From: Sulfolobales archaeon HS-7
Lineage (GTDB): Archaea > Thermoproteota > Thermoprotei_A > Sulfolobales > Sulfolobaceae
Direction: 5' to 3'
Length of the DNA stretch: 64,000 bases
Assembly: GCA_019704295.1 (NCBI GenBank)
Contig: AP024596.1
Location: forward strand, 1,721,369-1,785,368
This document shows positions 28,172 to 46,067 of this stretch, one piece after another (the stretch's first letter is position 1; each line of letters begins with the position of its first letter). The notes below the pieces were generated by a model. The model did not search any database, was not told the DNA's origin, and worked only from the letters and a program-made list of their open reading frames with translations. The position numbers and the translations under genes are program-made.

Positions 28172-28576
28172 CTAAGAGAGGTCCAAGTAGCGCATTCCTA
28201 TGTTATCAATTCTATGGGCAAGCTTACTCTTGGATAGTCTTAGTGAACCCGAAACTCCCTTTATACATAACTCCTCAAAGTCATTTAATATCACATTTAT
28301 GGGATCTGATGTTTCACAGGAAAAATCGACATATCCGTCATATTCTATTCTACGAACGGGAATGTCGTTTATTGATAATATTAAGCCTCCGAAAAGGAGG
28401 GCTAAGCAGAAGGCCGTTTGCGTACACCATTCATTTATTCTCATTCCTTTCTCTAAATCTTCAAATCTGAGATTGAGGATATTTTTCTCCTTTGTTATAA
28501 AAGGAGGGGAATATGCCACAGTCACCTTAATTCTCCTGTCTATCTGTATTTCCTTTACAGATGGAAAGGATATCAT
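28172..28576 (-). CDS. hypothetical protein
   Basis: The family is not recognised. The 134 residues have a beta-rich N-terminus (EIQIDRRIKVTVAYSPPF), a central helix with a cysteine pair (WCTQTAFCLALLFGGLIL) and a mixed C-terminus. The ATG at 28576 overlaps the stop of the DHPS-like gene by 4 bp, so it is the last cistron of the long mtnP-led array. Because of this coupling a role connected with pterin metabolism is possible, but nothing in the sequence shows it. Confidence 0.65.
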   Translation of the reverse strand: MISFPSVKEIQIDRRIKVTVAYSPPFITKEKNILNLRFEDLEKGMRINEWCTQTAFCLALLFGGLILSINDIPVRRIEYDGYVDFSCETSDPINVILNDFEELCIKGVSGSLRLSKSKLAHRIDNIGMRYLDLS

Positions 28577-30039
28577 TCGCCTATTCGCCTGAATAGCCTT
28601 CTATCCTGAACGTAATTTTTGTCAAGGTCCCTCGCAATTTCTGCTTTAGCTAATTCATAACCTATGTAAAGAGCATGTTGAGGGGACACATGCGTCTTCC
28701 TTAGGAGCGTTCTGCCTATCGAAAGAGCATCTCTTCCCTTAAGCGTGAATTTGTCCTTTCCATAAAATGTAAGGTAGATGTTGCCTCCTTTTTTCCAAAT
28801 TTTTACGAAGCCCTCTCTATCAAATACAGGTTCTTCATTAACTACCTCCACTATTTCCTTAGGTTCCTCCTCATCGTCACTTTTTCGCTTATCCTTAACA
28901 AGTAATAGGTCAACCCCTATATCCTTAGGGAACCTACCTTGTGTCTGCGCTATTGCCATTAACTCTCCGCTTCGTTTTAACTCCCAGGAAGACCACTTCG
29001 TCTTTCCCTTTTCCATTGTGAGTAGACAAGAAGTTCCTGCCTCTACTGCCAAGGCTGTTAGTAAGCCGTTTACACCGTGACTGTCAACATCGATAAGTTC
29101 GGTAATGTTTAAAGTGCCCATTAAAAAGGGAATGTTAGGAAATTTAACGCTAAGTTGTTTATATGCATACAGACTGTCTATCACCCCTTTTAGTGGAGGT
29201 GCCATAACGGGATCTCCTATTATCTTTGTGTATCCCATATCAGAAGCTTTATTAAGTAACCATGACACTGTCTCCAATTTATTTTCCCTAGAAAAAGGCG
29301 CTACTACAAAGGTGGCGTCCTTTTTAACATCTGTTAATCTCTCAATATTTATTTCGTTAAGGTTAAACACAAAAGACGCTCCGGCCTCGATACCAGCTTT
29401 CAATTCCAAAATAGAGTCGGAATCAACTGCAGCGTGAAACCCCGTATCCAAAACCCTTTTTATCATTTCCTTTATATATGACGGATCAGAGGAGCCAACG
29501 GGTGTTCCGACAACTATCACATCAACATAACGTTTAACTCTATCAATTTCCTCAAGCTGTGAAGACTGGGACACCTCCAGGAAGATTCTAAACGGGGGAG
29601 GTCTAAGCGGTATCCTAAGTCCGTTCACCTCCATGAAGTCCTTATTCACCTCGGTCAACTCAAGAACTTTATTAATGTAATTTTTCCTCATTTCATCGAT
29701 TACCCTATCTGCCGGGTCCTTCTTGGAAAGTGTAATCCCTCTTTTTAGGGCGTCTATAACCAGAGGAATATCAGCGGCTTCTTCGGTGCCCTTAAAAGTA
29801 GGGACGTGGACCTTTTCCTCAATAACTGTACAATCGCCGTATACCAGACCGGGAACTAATATTATGTCATAGCCTTTTAAGTCCTGATCCTTTAATTTCT
29901 CCGCGATATACCTGACGCTCATTAGAGCAGCGACTGGGTAATCTAAGGACTTTATTGTAATATCTACGTCTTTAATTTCACTGCAGGCTCTTTTGACGTC
30001 ATCCAATGCAAGCGTTCCAGTGACTACTAGTAGCCGCAT
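28573..30039 (-). CDS. dihydropteroate synthase-related protein (archaeal DHPS-like)
   Basis: This archaeal protein has a TIM-barrel dihydropteroate-synthase-like domain in the middle (about 140-360: AAVDSDSILELKAGIEAGAS, then VFNLNEINIER and a late GVNGLLTALAVEAG). It also has an N-terminal Rossmann-like extension (LLVVTGTLALDDVKRA) and a C-terminal basic domain (GRDALSIGRTLLRKTHVSPQHA). Members are thought to act in modified folate or methanopterin-like cofactor synthesis, but the archaeal reaction is not fully established. The TTG at 30072 gives an unlikely extension, so ATG 30039 (MRLLVVTG) is chosen. It follows the IMPase gene and is coupled to the gene at 28172. Confidence 0.85.
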   Translation of the reverse strand: MRLLVVTGTLALDDVKRACSEIKDVDITIKSLDYPVAALMSVRYIAEKLKDQDLKGYDIILVPGLVYGDCTVIEEKVHVPTFKGTEEAADIPLVIDALKRGITLSKKDPADRVIDEMRKNYINKVLELTEVNKDFMEVNGLRIPLRPPPFRIFLEVSQSSQLEEIDRVKRYVDVIVVGTPVGSSDPSYIKEMIKRVLDTGFHAAVDSDSILELKAGIEAGASFVFNLNEINIERLTDVKKDATFVVAPFSRENKLETVSWLLNKASDMGYTKIIGDPVMAPPLKGVIDSLYAYKQLSVKFPNIPFLMGTLNITELIDVDSHGVNGLLTALAVEAGTSCLLTMEKGKTKWSSWELKRSGELMAIAQTQGRFPKDIGVDLLLVKDKRKSDDEEEPKEIVEVVNEEPVFDREGFVKIWKKGGNIYLTFYGKDKFTLKGRDALSIGRTLLRKTHVSPQHALYIGYELAKAEIARDLDKNYVQDRRLFRRIGE

Positions 30040-30080
30040 AACTACATTGCCGAAAGTGGGATTTAATTTCAAAGTATAGA

Positions 30081-39377: not shown

Positions 39378-39902
<525 letters not shown>

Positions 39903-41218: not shown

Positions 41219-41851
41219 ATGGCCCGAAATAGAAAAGACAGCGATAAGGACGACCATGACGAAGTTGTCTTAACGCCAGTAAGAAAAAGGGCCCATGACA
41301 AGTTTGTAAAGCTACTTGGTAAGTACACACATGTTATTTACGATGACAACAAAACGCCTACTAAGGCTAGTTCAATGAGCGAAATGCTAGACGTAATGAC
41401 GGATACCTCGCAGAAGCTAGGTACAGATCTTAACGTGATAGTACTTTCAATGTTTCTCTTACCTGCAGTAAAGCAGGCTGGGCTAAACTTGGCGCCGTTG
41501 GAATTAATAATGCAATATAAGGACACTAGGGACGATAAAATAGTGAAAAATGTCCAGAATCTTGGTAAGAACCTGTCAGAAATACTTAAAAATTTGGAAT
41601 GCTTTAACAATTGCGTAAATCTCACTGTAAAGGTCTTAACGGAGTGGATGATGCCGGAAAGTACAGCAATGATATCTAGTGAGGGCAACGAATTCAAAAT
41701 TACCTTAATTCACAGGAGAAGTATAGGAACGGAAATAAAGCAATTTTCTCTAACCGTAATAGAGGGTTTTCTGGGTGGTTACGGTTACGCAATAGCTGAG
41801 AGACAGATCGAGGAGACGTCCGGGATGCTGAGGTTCGTGAAAAATGAATGA
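41219..41851 (+). CDS. hypothetical protein, first gene of the CitG-like operon
   Basis: The family is not recognised. The 210-residue protein has a very charged N-terminus (ARNRKDSDKDDHDEVV), a mainly helical core with a modestly hydrophobic segment (LNVIVLSMFLLPAVKQAGL), and a mixed C-terminal domain (NEFKITLIHRRSIGTEIKQF). No catalytic motif is visible. It starts at ATG 41219 and overlaps the ribbon-helix-helix gene by 8 bp, so it belongs to the tightly overlapping six-gene array to 45461. Confidence 0.7.
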   Translation: MARNRKDSDKDDHDEVVLTPVRKRAHDKFVKLLGKYTHVIYDDNKTPTKASSMSEMLDVMTDTSQKLGTDLNVIVLSMFLLPAVKQAGLNLAPLELIMQYKDTRDDKIVKNVQNLGKNLSEILKNLECFNNCVNLTVKVLTEWMMPESTAMISSEGNEFKITLIHRRSIGTEIKQFSLTVIEGFLGGYGYAIAERQIEETSGMLRFVKNE

Positions 41852-42383
41852 GGAAGAAATTAAAAGCAGGAAGATGATTGCGATTAAACCAGAGCTTCAC
41901 AACAAATTAAAAAAAATTAGCGAAAGTTCTGGAATACCGCTTTTCACCATAACTAACAATATTCTAGAAGAGGCCTTACGGTTATATGATATGAAGATTC
42001 CAGCGTCGGAATTGTATAACATTATCCAAGCTATTATAATGTTTAGGGATATCGGTTTCATACCTTTTCCCTATTCCCATGTAACCAAAAGTCGAACTGA
42101 GGATTGGGAGAAATTAGGGGAAACTGTGGGTATCTATATGACCAATATTGGAAAAGGGAGTAAAGAAGACGTAATTAATTTTGCTAAGATGTACTTATTT
42201 CTGATAGGAGTTAACCCCCTTCATTTCTCAAATGGAAAGAAAGGAGTATTTGCATCAGGTACGGCAATAACTCAAGACTTTATAGAAAAAATAGGAAATT
42301 TCTTTAATGGTATCATAAGGAAAACGGGGACTGGGTTAACGGTAAAAGCGACATATCAGTACATTTCAATAGAAGAAGTTTGA
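41844..42383 (+). CDS. ribbon-helix-helix N-terminal domain protein
   Basis: Residues about 10-52 fit a ribbon-helix-helix DNA-binding unit: MIAIKPELHNKLKKISESSG is the strand and first helix, and FTITNNILEEALRLYDM the second helix. The remaining 125 residues (FRDIGFIPFPYSHV, NFAKMYLFLIGVNPLHF, GTGLTVKATYQYISIEE) form an unknown effector-type domain. It overlaps the genes on both sides (8 bp and 4 bp). In this position it could regulate the operon in response to a ligand made by it. Family identity beyond the RHH unit is unknown. Confidence 0.65.
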   Translation: MNEEEIKSRKMIAIKPELHNKLKKISESSGIPLFTITNNILEEALRLYDMKIPASELYNIIQAIIMFRDIGFIPFPYSHVTKSRTEDWEKLGETVGIYMTNIGKGSKEDVINFAKMYLFLIGVNPLHFSNGKKGVFASGTAITQDFIEKIGNFFNGIIRKTGTGLTVKATYQYISIEEV

Positions 42384-43282
42384 TTTTTGCAGGAGTTGAT
42401 CCTGGAACTGACACGTGGGCATTTGCATCAGTTAACGAAATAGGAAATCTAATTGATTACTTTGAAATACCAGCTGTCCTGGTGGAAAAAGATTACGTGA
42501 GTCTCTTTAACAGGCTGTTAAGGAATAAACCTAAGCTAATTGCACTGCCTTCGGGTCACGGGATGCCTTTCCTAACTTGTAGGGAAATTGGGAATCGTGA
42601 GATCTTCTTTATGACATTAAAGGATCCGTTTGAGACTGGTCCTTTAAGGAACTTCTTAATTTACGCGAGGAGTTTCTGTAACGTAATCACGATTCCTGGC
42701 GTAAAGGAATTGCTCTCTATCAGCGAGAGTAAGAAAAGGAACTTAATAGATATGGGAACAGCAGACAAGGTTGCGTCGGCCTTTTTTTACATAACTAGAT
42801 TTCCAGGATTCGTTCTCGTCGAAATGGGAAGACATTTCTCAGCAATCATTGTTGTAGTGGATAGAAAAATCGTAAATGGTGTGGGAGGAAGTGTTTTACC
42901 AGGTCTGAGATCTAATGGTGCAATAGATGGGGAAATAGCTTACCTACTATCTAAATACTCAAAAATCTCGAAGGAGTCGATCTATGAGGGGGGGAATCTA
43001 GAAAGATCAATTGAGGTGATAGAGTCTATCGCATCCTACTACTCCAGGAAACATAATGTTCCCATCATTATCTCTGGACCAGCGAAAGACGTATTTCCTT
43101 ACGGAATCAAATTCCAACTCCCTTATAAAGAAGCTGCAGTCGGTGCAGCGCTAATAGCAAACGCTTTTGGAGGCGGTTATTACAGGAAATATATGGAGTC
43201 AGTTATTTCTGCCGGGAATCCGCTATCTTACATAGACATTAAGGGATGGGAGAAGATAGTTTCCTTGATAGAGACGCTTTAA
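42380..43282 (+). CDS. DUF1464-like protein (ASKHA sugar/acid-kinase fold)
   Basis: The start FAGVDPGTDTWAFASVN is the phosphate-1 loop of the ASKHA superfamily (acetate/butyrate kinase, Hsp70, actin). Later motifs that fit are LVEMGRHFSAIIVVVDRKIV (phosphate-2) and IIISGPAKDVF (adenosine-type strand). Archaeal homologues are annotated as DUF1464 or predicted butyrate kinase, but no activity is established. The start is TTG at 42380, overlapping the previous stop (TTTGA). Its stop overlaps the preferred start of the nucleotidyltransferase (TAATG). Confidence 0.75.
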   Translation: MIFAGVDPGTDTWAFASVNEIGNLIDYFEIPAVLVEKDYVSLFNRLLRNKPKLIALPSGHGMPFLTCREIGNREIFFMTLKDPFETGPLRNFLIYARSFCNVITIPGVKELLSISESKKRNLIDMGTADKVASAFFYITRFPGFVLVEMGRHFSAIIVVVDRKIVNGVGGSVLPGLRSNGAIDGEIAYLLSKYSKISKESIYEGGNLERSIEVIESIASYYSRKHNVPIIISGPAKDVFPYGIKFQLPYKEAAVGAALIANAFGGGYYRKYMESVISAGNPLSYIDIKGWEKIVSLIETL

Positions 43283-44154
43283 TGGATAAAAGAGGAAATT
43301 ACTACATAGTAATTGGTAATGCGCATCCTAGAGGTTACGTTATTGCTTACCTAAAGTACGTAAAAGGGAATGGCTTATGGAGAGGCTATCAACGTGTACT
43401 TCCGCAATACGGAATTAAGAACGTTTTACAACTAAGTCAGGAGTTCTCCTTTGAACCTTGCATGGACGTTTCTGTCCCAATTATTAGAACATCTGAAATA
43501 TGGCTTCATTTAAGACCACAAGATGCCCTTACCCGGATTATTAGACATCCTTCTGACAACTTAGAGTTCGTTGCCGTTGAGATGATTAGTCGTTTAGGAA
43601 CTAATTCGGCGGGAATAGCTGGTTCCCTGATGCTGGGAATACATCATGAGGATTCCGATATAGACGTGATATATTATGGATGTAAGCGTTCCTTGGATGT
43701 AATGCATAGCTTTGAGGGATTTGAAACCGATAAAGACTGGATCGTTGAAGTAAGTCAGAATTATGGATTAAAGCCCATAAAGGACCTCTACTCTATAAAA
43801 AGGCGAGGAATCTTCAAGGGAAAAAAATACTCTATTAACTTCGTAAATGATAAACCTGAGAAGTTCTGCAAAGAATCATGTAATAAGGTGGGTAGGCAAA
43901 AGTTAGTTGCTTACGTAGAGCCTGAATCATGTGAAGCACTTTTTTATCCAATTTCGATGAATTTATTCGATACTAACGTAATTAGTGGCCCCTCGGTTAA
44001 ACCAGATAAGGTGATGTCATATGAAGGAGTGATTTCCAATCTACTATTTGTCGGGGGACGTTTTAAAATGGAAGGAATGTTAATGAAATGCGATACAGGA
44101 TTCAAGTTAATTCTCGGGGATAGGGATGTCGGTCTTAAAATTGACAAACTGTAG
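43282..44154 (+). CDS. predicted nucleotidyltransferase (pol-beta-like, COG1665 type)
   Basis: The nucleotidyltransferase motif is SLMLGIHHEDSDIDVIYYG, with the G-S...D-x-D arrangement of the pol-beta superfamily near residues 110-128. The N-terminus GNYYIVIGNAHPRGYVIAYL and the segment WLHLRPQDALTRI are conserved in archaeal proteins of this type. The upstream ATG at 43246 would overlap the previous gene by 37 bp. ATG 43282 forms a TAATG stop-start overlap and fits the family N-terminus better, so it is used. The substrate is unknown. Pairing with a CitG homologue downstream recalls the CitG-CitX and MdcB-MdcG pairs. Confidence 0.72.
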   Translation: MDKRGNYYIVIGNAHPRGYVIAYLKYVKGNGLWRGYQRVLPQYGIKNVLQLSQEFSFEPCMDVSVPIIRTSEIWLHLRPQDALTRIIRHPSDNLEFVAVEMISRLGTNSAGIAGSLMLGIHHEDSDIDVIYYGCKRSLDVMHSFEGFETDKDWIVEVSQNYGLKPIKDLYSIKRRGIFKGKKYSINFVNDKPEKFCKESCNKVGRQKLVAYVEPESCEALFYPISMNLFDTNVISGPSVKPDKVMSYEGVISNLLFVGGRFKMEGMLMKCDTGFKLILGDRDVGLKIDKL

Positions 44155-45016
44155 GGACATAGCAAGAAGAATAACATATGCATCAATAAAGGAGATTCTA
44201 ACAAATAAGCCAGGTAACGCGTCTCCTAAAAAGGATATAAGGAGTGTTAAGTTCTCCGAGATATTAAGTAACGCTATGGAACTTGAACCTTACTATTATC
44301 AACTTTGCATGAAGGGAGTCTCTCAAGAAAAAGGGATATACGACCATCTATATTCCGCAATAGTTGAATCTAAGAAAAAAGGGATATCTTTTCACTTACT
44401 GGGTACGGCTTTATTAAATATGCCCATTGCGTATGTTGCTGGCACTTCTCCAAATCTAGCGGATTTACGTAGTGGATTAGGACGAGTAATTAGGGAGTTA
44501 GATCAAACGGAGTTTGACAATTTCAGGAAATCCCTGCAAATCGTTAGCCCCAGCTATTTGGGTAGGTTAGATATGTCAGATTACAGAAACTTCTCAGGCA
44601 GTATGTACGATGTTCTGGTAGTATCTTCTGAATCTGACAGAAATTGCTCTAACATGGTTAACGGTTACGTTATATCCTTCGAAATATATGAGTGGTTCAA
44701 AAGTAATGGCGACTCTGAGGAGACTGTTACTTTAGAATTCCTCAATCTCCTCTCCAATTATCCAGACACTCTCCTCTACAGGAAACACGGAGGAAGGGTA
44801 TCACTGCAAGTTTCTGAACTAGTTAGGTCAATGCTCAACAGTACGGCAAACATTATGGGAATATCGGAATTCCTAGACAGGTATCTTACGGAAAGAGGTT
44901 TCAACCCTGGTTCGACGGCTGACTTAATAGCATCAGGTCTAGCACTATATTATTTGGATAAGCTATATAGTAATAGAAATAATGAGAGTTTTACTTATAA
45001 CGAAAACCCTATGTAA
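44126..45016 (+). CDS. triphosphoribosyl-dephospho-CoA synthase (CitG/MdcB) homologue
   Basis: CitG-family features are visible: EILTNKPGNASPKKDIRSVK matches the P-K-P-G...D motif at the N-terminus, followed by FSEILSNAMELEPYYYQLC, a central LLGTALLNMPIAYV helix, and the late motif NPGSTADLIASGLALYYLD. Bacterial enzymes make the prosthetic-group precursor of citrate lyase or malonate decarboxylase from dephospho-CoA and ATP. Neither of those complexes is encoded here, so the archaeal product may differ. The gene overlaps both neighbours (29 and 35 bp). The 296-residue length is typical. Confidence 0.75.
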   Translation: MSVLKLTNCRDIARRITYASIKEILTNKPGNASPKKDIRSVKFSEILSNAMELEPYYYQLCMKGVSQEKGIYDHLYSAIVESKKKGISFHLLGTALLNMPIAYVAGTSPNLADLRSGLGRVIRELDQTEFDNFRKSLQIVSPSYLGRLDMSDYRNFSGSMYDVLVVSSESDRNCSNMVNGYVISFEIYEWFKSNGDSEETVTLEFLNLLSNYPDTLLYRKHGGRVSLQVSELVRSMLNSTANIMGISEFLDRYLTERGFNPGSTADLIASGLALYYLDKLYSNRNNESFTYNENPM

Positions 45017-45461
45017 TGAGTTGATGGTTCAGAAGGTTAATCGCTTTAACGTTGACGCCGTAATAGGAGTTGGAGATGTTACTTGTCCCGAAAGGTTTAA
45101 GGGATTTAAGGGTCTACATGGGGAGCTTGATGGGGTACACGCGTATAAGTATATTATGAGGAATAGGTTTACTTCCTCGTTAGCGTTATCTTCAGATTTT
45201 ACGACGGAGTATGTGGTAAGCCATATGCCGCCATTGGGCTCCACAACTGCAGTGGTAAACGGGGTTTATATTGGTTCGATTGAGGTTACGGAGTTAGTGA
45301 AAAGACATAAACCTAAGATCTTATTTCACGGACACGTAGAGGACCAGGGCAAGGGGCTAATTAATGGCGTCCTCGTAGTTTCCATCGGTTCGTTAGATAG
45401 GGGTCGTGCAATACTATTTGATGAAGAAAGGCTTTTTTTCGAATTCCTAGAAATTAAGTAA
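44982..45461 (+). CDS. calcineurin-like metallophosphatase (short)
   Basis: The 159-residue protein keeps the metallophosphoesterase pattern in reduced form: [10 protein letters not shown] (motif GD), GLHGELDG in place of [25 protein letters not shown] as the GH-x-H box, and [12 protein letters not shown] as the final strand. The N-terminal D-x-H motif is replaced by [11 protein letters not shown], so metal binding at one site may be weak. It is the last gene of the six-gene operon and overlaps the CitG-like gene by 35 bp. Its 3' end overlaps the convergent phosphoribosyltransferase by 15 bp. Confidence 0.75.
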
Positions 45462-46067
45462 ATTCCTTCTTTTCATTTCTTCTAGGACGTCTTTAACGGG
45501 TATTGGCGGTTCGACTCCGTAATTGTCCTTGAAAGCGTGCTCTATATCAGTTTTTACACCGTTATCAAGGAGTTTCCTTATCAGATTTATCTCATCTTCC
45601 CAATAGTTCCAAGGATACATAAACCATGCCCAATCTGTAATGGTCGCGGCATAGTAGTCCGGTTTAATCCTCGCAGTACTTTCGATATACTGCATAGTAG
45701 ATGTTCTTATCGCACCAGGATTGAAATTATCGCTTACAAATTTCTTCGCTATCTCGAGACTATCCCCAGTGTCACATATATCATCGACTATTAATACATT
45801 CCCTCCCTTTAAGTCAAGTTTATACGGGAACTTAATTTTAGCTTCGACGTCCTTGTTAGCGGTCTGCACCCAATGTTCAACTTTTATTGAAATTACGTCA
45901 AGGACGCCTAACGCGTCGGCAACTAACCTGGCCGGTACCAAACCTCCGCGTGCAATTGCAATGATTACGTCTACCTTATATTCGTCCCTTTTGATCTTAT
46001 CGCTTATGCCAGAACTCCAGTTTACTATATCGTCCCAGTCGACCACCCTAACGGGTATCTTGACCAA
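45447..46067 (-). CDS. purine phosphoribosyltransferase
   Basis: This is a type I phosphoribosyltransferase that joins a purine base to PRPP. The PRPP-binding loop is [13 protein letters not shown] near residues 92-104, preceded by [20 protein letters not shown]. The C-terminal hood has the aromatic-rich [16 protein letters not shown], typical of archaeal xanthine/guanine/hypoxanthine PRTases of the Gpt-like kind. 206 residues is within the family range. Base specificity cannot be read from sequence. Start ATG at 46067; the gene is monocistronic and convergent with the CitG-like operon. Confidence 0.87.

Follow-up and report, generated by a model that had tools for sequence, protein, structure and literature searches.

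An overlapping six-gene locus and its conserved core

The 64-kb window analyzed here (64,000 nucleotides, the whole stretch of DNA under study) is contained in the 2.15-Mb, single-contig genome of Sulfolobales archaeon HS-7 (designated G000), an archaeon of hot-spring origin, and carries six co-directional genes, A to F, in which a homolog of the triphosphoribosyl-dephospho-CoA synthase CitG (gene E) follows a predicted nucleotidyltransferase (NTase; gene D). The six open reading frames (ORFs) are found where a first-pass annotation of this DNA had placed them and, as it had claimed, overlap at every junction, by 4-37 nt in all five cases:

41219-41851, + strand: gene A, 210 aa, no Pfam match above cut-off, family-less
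41844-42383, + strand: gene B, 179 aa, ribbon-helix-helix (RHH)-like (RHH_3, E 0.02, below cut-off), candidate regulator
42380-43282, + strand: gene C, 300 aa, TTG start, DUF1464 (PF07318, E 5.6e-83), predicted kinase-like step
43246-44154, + strand: gene D, 302 aa, pol-beta-type NTase with a C-terminal OB-like domain, predicted coupling enzyme
44126-45016, + strand: gene E, 296 aa, CitG homolog (PF01874, E 1.1e-39), predicted (tri)phosphoribosyl transferase
44982-45461, + strand: gene F, 159 aa, degenerate metallophosphoesterase (PF14582, Metallophos_3, E 1.2e-08)

The individual overlaps are 8 nt (A/B), 4 nt (B/C), 37 nt (C/D), 29 nt (D/E) and 35 nt (E/F). An in-frame ATG at 43282 offers an alternative start for D that would leave a 1-nt overlap with C; the residues between the two possible starts (FLDRD-like) are retained by relatives from the same family (Sulfolobaceae), and the start at 43246 is therefore favored. 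The alignments and the structural model of D use the 290-aa form that begins at 43282, from which the D residue numbers are counted. Among same-family loci, 28 carry both genes, and in 23 of them the C/D overlap measures 34-40 nt when ORFs are taken from the first possible start, so that the overlap is not unique to the window genome; the exceptions are overlaps of 64 nt in locus L032, 67 nt in L035 and L058 and 46 nt in L056, and a 25-nt gap in L046. Scans for sigma-70 promoters and terminators, the former not being archaeal, reveal no excess over shuffled sequence.

Gene D is detected in 55 of 60 relatives overall and in 29 of 30 same-family genomes, the sole one without a match being G019 (71% complete). 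The block C-D-E-F is present in the same order in 28 of the 29 same-family loci, with C split into two pieces in L035 and F truncated by the contig end in L032, so that both the coupling of these genes and the synteny in related genomes hold. Named relatives of E come from Sulfolobus, Saccharolobus, Metallosphaera and Sulfodiicoccus. Relatives of A lie upstream of C in 11 of the 29 loci, and relatives of B are present in 19, in 11 co-directionally with A and in eight divergently without A; neither is found in the remaining 10. Since C-D-E-F is constant and A and B vary across these loci, the core of the operon is C-D-E-F, with A and B being optional and probably regulatory. A single protein in L032, and another in L035, matches both the A and the B profiles, and A and B may be related to each other. 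The divergent B-like RHH genes adjoin C in L050, L053 and L055 to L060, a pattern expected of a local regulator.

Predicted proteins of the C-D-E-F block

Gene E is a member of the CitG/MdcB family (PF01874, 137.2 bits, cut-off 27) that scores below the CitG equivalog cut-off (TIGR03125, 18.4 bits against 272.3). The model of E, with a pLDDT of 93.8, adopts the fold of PDB entry 3h9p (TM 0.83 by target, E 4.8e-06; profile match 7.8e-42), a CitG homolog of Archaeoglobus fulgidus that is itself labeled only as a putative triphosphoribosyl-dephospho-CoA synthase, and the similarity to E. coli CitG is remote yet clear (hhalign probability 97.7). The residues E23, KPG, G93 and D214, together with PG and AD in the C-terminal part, are invariant or at least 90% conserved in 17 aligned sequences that include E. 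coli CitG. Thus most of the active-site residues that the first-pass annotation had proposed to check are kept, with the exception of the last two positions of a GNT motif (see below). Several Sulfolobaceae relatives of E are annotated as triphosphoribosyl-dephospho-CoA synthase.

The sequence of D alone matches NTP_transf_2 only below threshold (E 0.15), and no Pfam domain is recorded for the D family among the 120 relatives listed. The NTase label is supported by a GS...DxD signature that is near-invariant, being present in at least 95 of 97 D-family sequences (residue G114 in 97, S115 in 96, D126 in 97 and D128 in 95). In the model of the 290-aa form (pLDDT 94.9), a beta region at the N-terminus precedes the NTase core, and the C-terminal part is OB-like. 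A Foldseek search with this model finds no known fold at E <= 0.001, a repeat structure search, mainly with the C-terminal part, gives weak domain matches, and a profile search of the PDB finds no convincing relative (best E 0.033). Similarity of D to E. coli CitX is not detectable by hhalign (probability 0.1), in agreement with the initial view that the two NTases are unrelated. In a midpoint-rooted NTase tree, D clusters with the second NTase copies near CitG in L180, L190, L197 and L211. Two or three NTase copies of different subfamilies are located near CitG in L179, L180, L183, L186, L188, L190, L197, L211 and L216.

Gene C is a clear DUF1464 member (279.3 bits against PF07318, cut-off 23.5), which we take to have an ASKHA fold; a match to a pantothenate kinase is below threshold (E 0.16). 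The motifs DPG, GT and DK and the residues E148 and D183, which are of nucleotide-binding type, are invariant in 16 aligned DUF1464 members. The Sulfolobaceae proteins are shorter than the other members and do not have segments that those others carry. In the literature search, from which most subscription papers were outside coverage, no paper naming DUF1464 was found.

The dinuclear metal ligands of calcineurin-type metallophosphoesterases are provided by DxH, D, N, H and HxH motifs. In F this site is degenerate, with the DxH of motif I, the Asn of motif III and the last His of motif V gone in 14 of 14 aligned rows; a relative of F in L071 retains the ligands that these rows are missing. The residues C11, D32, C35, H81 and H118, which are invariant in the aligned F rows, suggest a different metal site or none, and from its sequence F is probably an accessory protein or one with an altered metal site. 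Among the family labels first given to the six genes, CitG and DUF1464 are therefore firm, and the metallophosphoesterase label is above cut-off for a protein whose site is degenerate; the RHH and NTase labels are sub-threshold on single sequences, the latter being backed by GS...DxD.

Co-occurrence and gene neighborhoods

The distribution of these families was determined across 121 genomes sampled from the phylum, seven of them from Sulfolobaceae, together with genes of the methanopterin pathway, including MptG (RFAP synthase) and MCH (methenyl-H4MPT cyclohydrolase). MptG was counted at E < 1e-15, which retains 44 of the 84 genomes with any match (33 are above the curated cut-off); for DUF447, 40 of 41 genomes were used, one below the cut-off being left out, and for the NTase family 59 of 64, the five with only a match at E > 1e-4 being dropped along with some fragment rows. 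CitG is present in 52 genomes and DUF1464 in 35, with 44 for MptG, 40 for DUF447, 37 for DHPS-DUF4346, 59 for the NTase family, 26 for MCH and 32 for MptA (E <= 0.001).

All 52 CitG genomes contain the NTase family, which bears out the pairing of CitG with an NTase that had been read from the single locus. MptG is present in 41 of these 52 genomes and MCH in 10 of the remaining 11; the eleventh, G114 (77% complete), carries Fwd-type genes beside CitG. MptG or MCH is thus found in 51 of 52 CitG genomes versus 10 of 69 CitG-less genomes (Fisher p 1e-22, not phylogeny-corrected), and MptG is present in 34 of 35 DUF1464 genomes, so that CitG and DUF1464 track the distribution of the methanopterin pathway genes. 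Two MptG-family genes (E < 1e-15) are present in each of G035, G037, G045, G047, G055 and G076, several of which have one near DUF1464.

Among 14 control genomes, CitG matches in E. coli, M. jannaschii, H. volcanii, S. acidocaldarius and M. acetivorans, and MptG, DUF447 and MptE-like genes match in the same four archaea. MCH is found in M. jannaschii, H. volcanii and M. acetivorans and not in S. acidocaldarius. Of the pathway genes, MptG and DUF447 are present in the window genome, as are DHPS-like and MptE-like genes; MptG is located approximately 120 kb from the operon, and DUF447 and the MptE-like gene are elsewhere in the genome. MCH was not found in a search of this genome.

The association is also apparent in gene neighborhoods outside Sulfolobaceae, where relatives of DUF1464, CitG and the NTase lie beside or near MptG, MptA, MptE, DUF447, DHPS, DmrX-like, Mch and Fwd-type genes. 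At a distance of up to 5 kb, an NTase neighbors CitG in 14 of 45 genomes (9 of 20 families), DUF1464 neighbors MptG in 11 of 27 genomes with both (six families), and CitG neighbors DUF447 in 9 of 29 genomes, as compared with an approximate expectation of one or fewer per gene pair from random gene order in a 1.6-Mb genome. MptG has CitG this close in G095 only, and has the NTase this close in G076 and G144. Examples of these arrangements, with gene names taken from representatives and extended by cluster, are NTase-NTase-CitG-DUF447-MptA-MptE in L211, NTase (two overlapping pieces)-DUF447-DUF1464-DmrX-like-DHPS-MptG in L091 and DUF447-MptE-DmrX-like-DUF1464-MptA-MptG-DHPS in L168. In L182, CitG is followed by molybdopterin-, amidohydrolase- and GXGXG-MCH-fusion-type genes, which are read as Fwd/Mch. 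The C, D and E relatives thus lie within or near methanopterin clusters composed of MptA, MptE, MptG, DUF447, DHPS-like and DmrX-like genes, from which the Sulfolobaceae arrangement differs in that C-D-E-F forms an operon of its own away from MptG.

The contexts of 35 CitG loci outside the family, a subset drawn from the 52 CitG genomes, were examined (10 from MptG-less and 25 from MptG-bearing genomes). Seven of the 10 MptG-less loci (L177, L179, L180, L184, L194, L197 and L215) have an ECF-type transporter S component no more than 100 bases from CitG, and none of the 25 loci of MptG-bearing genomes has one there, a pattern that was noticed post hoc in related lineages. An ECF S component is also present near MptG and DHPS in L208 of the CitG-less genome G083. 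The transporter beside CitG in MptG-less loci fits a role of CitG in late steps, and MptG-less archaea could import an early precursor of the cofactor and then finish it.

Three further features of the window lie outside the operon:

28573-30072, - strand: pterin-binding DHPS-like ORF (PterinBD-DUF4346), with a PF14251 match at G000:C1:1749971-1750189 inside the ORF
39378-39902, - strand: second short metallophosphoesterase-like ORF (Metallophos, E 0.022, below cut-off)
45447-46067, - strand: phosphoribosyltransferase gene, convergent on F and sharing 15 nt with the end of F

The DHPS-like ORF is likely to serve the same pathway as the operon.

Proposed role in a methanopterin-type carrier

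CitG moves a triphosphoribosyl group from ATP onto a sugar hydroxyl, and CitX/MdcG couple the CitG product to an acceptor with the release of pyrophosphate. Methanopterin contains a second ribose with a phosphodiester to hydroxyglutarate, and the linkage is alpha in both the CitG product and methanopterin. On balance, and with moderate confidence, we consider that C-D-E-F are responsible for the sugar-phosphate arm of a methanopterin-type one-carbon carrier of archaea (presumably sulfopterin in Sulfolobaceae), with E and D as the predicted transferase and coupling enzyme. The cofactor is probably methanopterin-type because relatives of C, D and E adjoin or neighbor Mpt, Mch and Fwd-type genes elsewhere. 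The first-pass annotation had suggested a new phosphoribosylated cofactor; the phosphoribosylated part of this idea stands, and the novelty of the cofactor is probably wrong, as the neighbors point to a methanopterin-type carrier. The parts of this reading differ in strength: the membership of E in a methanopterin-type pathway is held with good confidence, that of D and C is reasonably probable, and the chemistry proposed for E and D (triphosphoribosyl transfer, then coupling with loss of pyrophosphate), which is drawn by analogy, is tentative.

From the conservation, co-occurrence and co-location of these genes, we infer the following substrates, order of steps, roles of C and F and regulation by A and B. 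MptG would form the ribosylated arylamine, to which the pterin would then be joined. Much as CitG acts on dephospho-CoA, E would attach the second ribose, as a triphosphate, to one of the hydroxyls of the arylamine-pentitol intermediate, and the group moved may be triphosphoribosyl or phosphoribosyl. D, acting in the manner of CitX/MdcG, would treat the triphosphoribosyl pterin as an analog of a nucleoside triphosphate, with the terminal acid acceptor displacing pyrophosphate. C may phosphorylate an intermediate in a step that would be lineage-specific, since the methanogen controls do not have DUF1464. F, whose phosphatase site is broken, would serve as an accessory subunit, and A and B would regulate the operon.

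A number of observations weigh against this proposal. In the window genome the operon contains no known Mpt gene, and MptA was found in none of the seven same-family genomes, including that of the window. Proximity of CitG to DUF1464 (within 5 kb) is limited to the seven same-family genomes, and in G001 (L043; 79% complete) D is isolated, without C, E and F. DUF1464 is found among the controls in S. acidocaldarius only and not in the three other MptG archaea, and 10 of 44 MptG genomes do not have it, so that C cannot belong to methanopterin synthesis in general. MptG or MCH occurs without detected CitG in ten genomes, including G083, which is 98% complete and has MptG, DUF447, DHPS and MCH, and G038 and G047, which are each 99% complete with a pathway marker. 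The NTase copies that directly adjoin CitG outside Sulfolobaceae mostly belong to subfamilies other than that of D, and the NTase-CitG proximity count (14 of 45) therefore mixes subfamilies; the search with the NTase-family alignment covered the 121-genome sample only. A third catalytic acid does not stand out in D, and F is without the phosphatase metal ligands. In E, the N and T of the GNT motif are replaced in all five Sulfolobaceae rows, including that of the window, of the 17-sequence alignment, in which the motif is intact in E. coli CitG and 11 other archaeal rows. Therefore, the donor or the acceptor may differ in Sulfolobaceae. The motif is also variable in other relatives of the order (L202, L204, L205 and L206), and in 3h9p the N is kept and the T is not.

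The operon might instead serve methanofuran, or another partner in the formyl-methanofuran/Mch branch, in place of the pterin carrier. In L179, L182, L186, L188 and L192, CitG has Fwd-type and/or Mch genes nearby, and 10 of the 11 MptG-less CitG genomes contain MCH, both of which are consistent with this possibility. However, all seven same-family genomes have CitG and none has MCH, which indicates that neither methanofuran nor Mch by itself accounts for the association, and DUF1464 tracks MptG (34/35), so that this alternative is improbable. It is also improbable, to the same degree, that the co-occurrence reflects the shared ancestry of these archaea and that the operon has an unrelated function. 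The co-occurrence counts are uncorrected for phylogeny, which is a further point against a pathway link, proximity of CitG and DUF1464 is a feature of a single family, A and B are present in some loci and absent from others, and the CitG-adjoining NTases elsewhere are mostly not of the D subfamily; descent of the hosts alone, however, does not explain proximity in nine (NTase-CitG) and six (DUF1464-MptG) families.

An RNA or nucleotide end-modification, in which D, with its NTase core and OB-like domain, and E would add ribosyl-phosphate to RNA, is slightly less probable still; the OB-like domain would suit an RNA substrate as well, a further point against the carrier proposal. The least probable alternative is the modification of a protein, which the first-pass annotation had also raised and in which E would make triphosphoribosyl-dephospho-CoA for D to attach to a carrier protein: E is a true CitG homolog that has the CitG fold and, in common with E. 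coli CitG, the residues KPG, D214, PG and AD, and in E. coli K-12 the NTase gene citX likewise precedes and overlaps citG, by 26 nt, but the CitD/MdcC acyl carrier protein (PF06857) of citrate lyase and malonate decarboxylase was not found in G000 (the E. coli control is positive), D is not CitX-like, E falls far below the equivalog cut-off and has lost the NT of GNT, and this alternative leaves the association with pterin genes unexplained.

In a broader and rather unlikely extension of the carrier proposal, archaeal CitG and its NTase would form a module that builds the tails of one-carbon carriers in archaea generally, bacteria would have redeployed this archaeal cofactor pathway as the CitG/CitX system of citrate lyase, and MptG-less archaea would import a precursor through the CitG-adjoining ECF transporter and finish it.

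The modified folate of Sulfolobus was reportedly studied by Zhou and White in 1992. The modified folate of S. solfataricus is reported to be sulfopterin (PMC3432047, PMC3697235, PMC9931769), and a folate analog with traits of both tetrahydrofolate and methanopterin is attributed to Sulfolobales, and a methanopterin-related one to A. fulgidus (PMC3261824). The phosphate and hydroxyglutaric acid moieties of methanopterin are mentioned in PMC8141765. Orf5 of methylotrophs was considered as a CitG homolog and rejected, being the ATP-grasp ligase MyfB (PMC8141765). The words CitG and triphosphoribosyl are both absent from the body text of PMC4169470, PMC3615186 and PMC13300288. The literature search yielded no published function for the cluster and no paper assigning COG1767/CitG or DUF1464 to methanopterin, within a coverage of subscription papers that is poor, and earlier proposals may exist.

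In the table of a 2011 review, three proteins of methanopterin synthesis are known and an estimated seven unknown, with several assembly steps after RFAP synthase having no assigned gene (PMC3087415); some have been assigned since that review, an example being MptN (PMC8141765). Archaeal CitG, the NTase family of D and DUF1464 are candidates for late steps of methanopterin-type pathways, and the chemistry of CitG/CitX is offered as a borrowed logic for the assembly of the arm. If this is true, the name triphosphoribosyl-dephospho-CoA synthase carried by several Sulfolobaceae proteins would need correction, and the biosynthesis of sulfopterin would become testable in the genetically tractable Sulfolobus.

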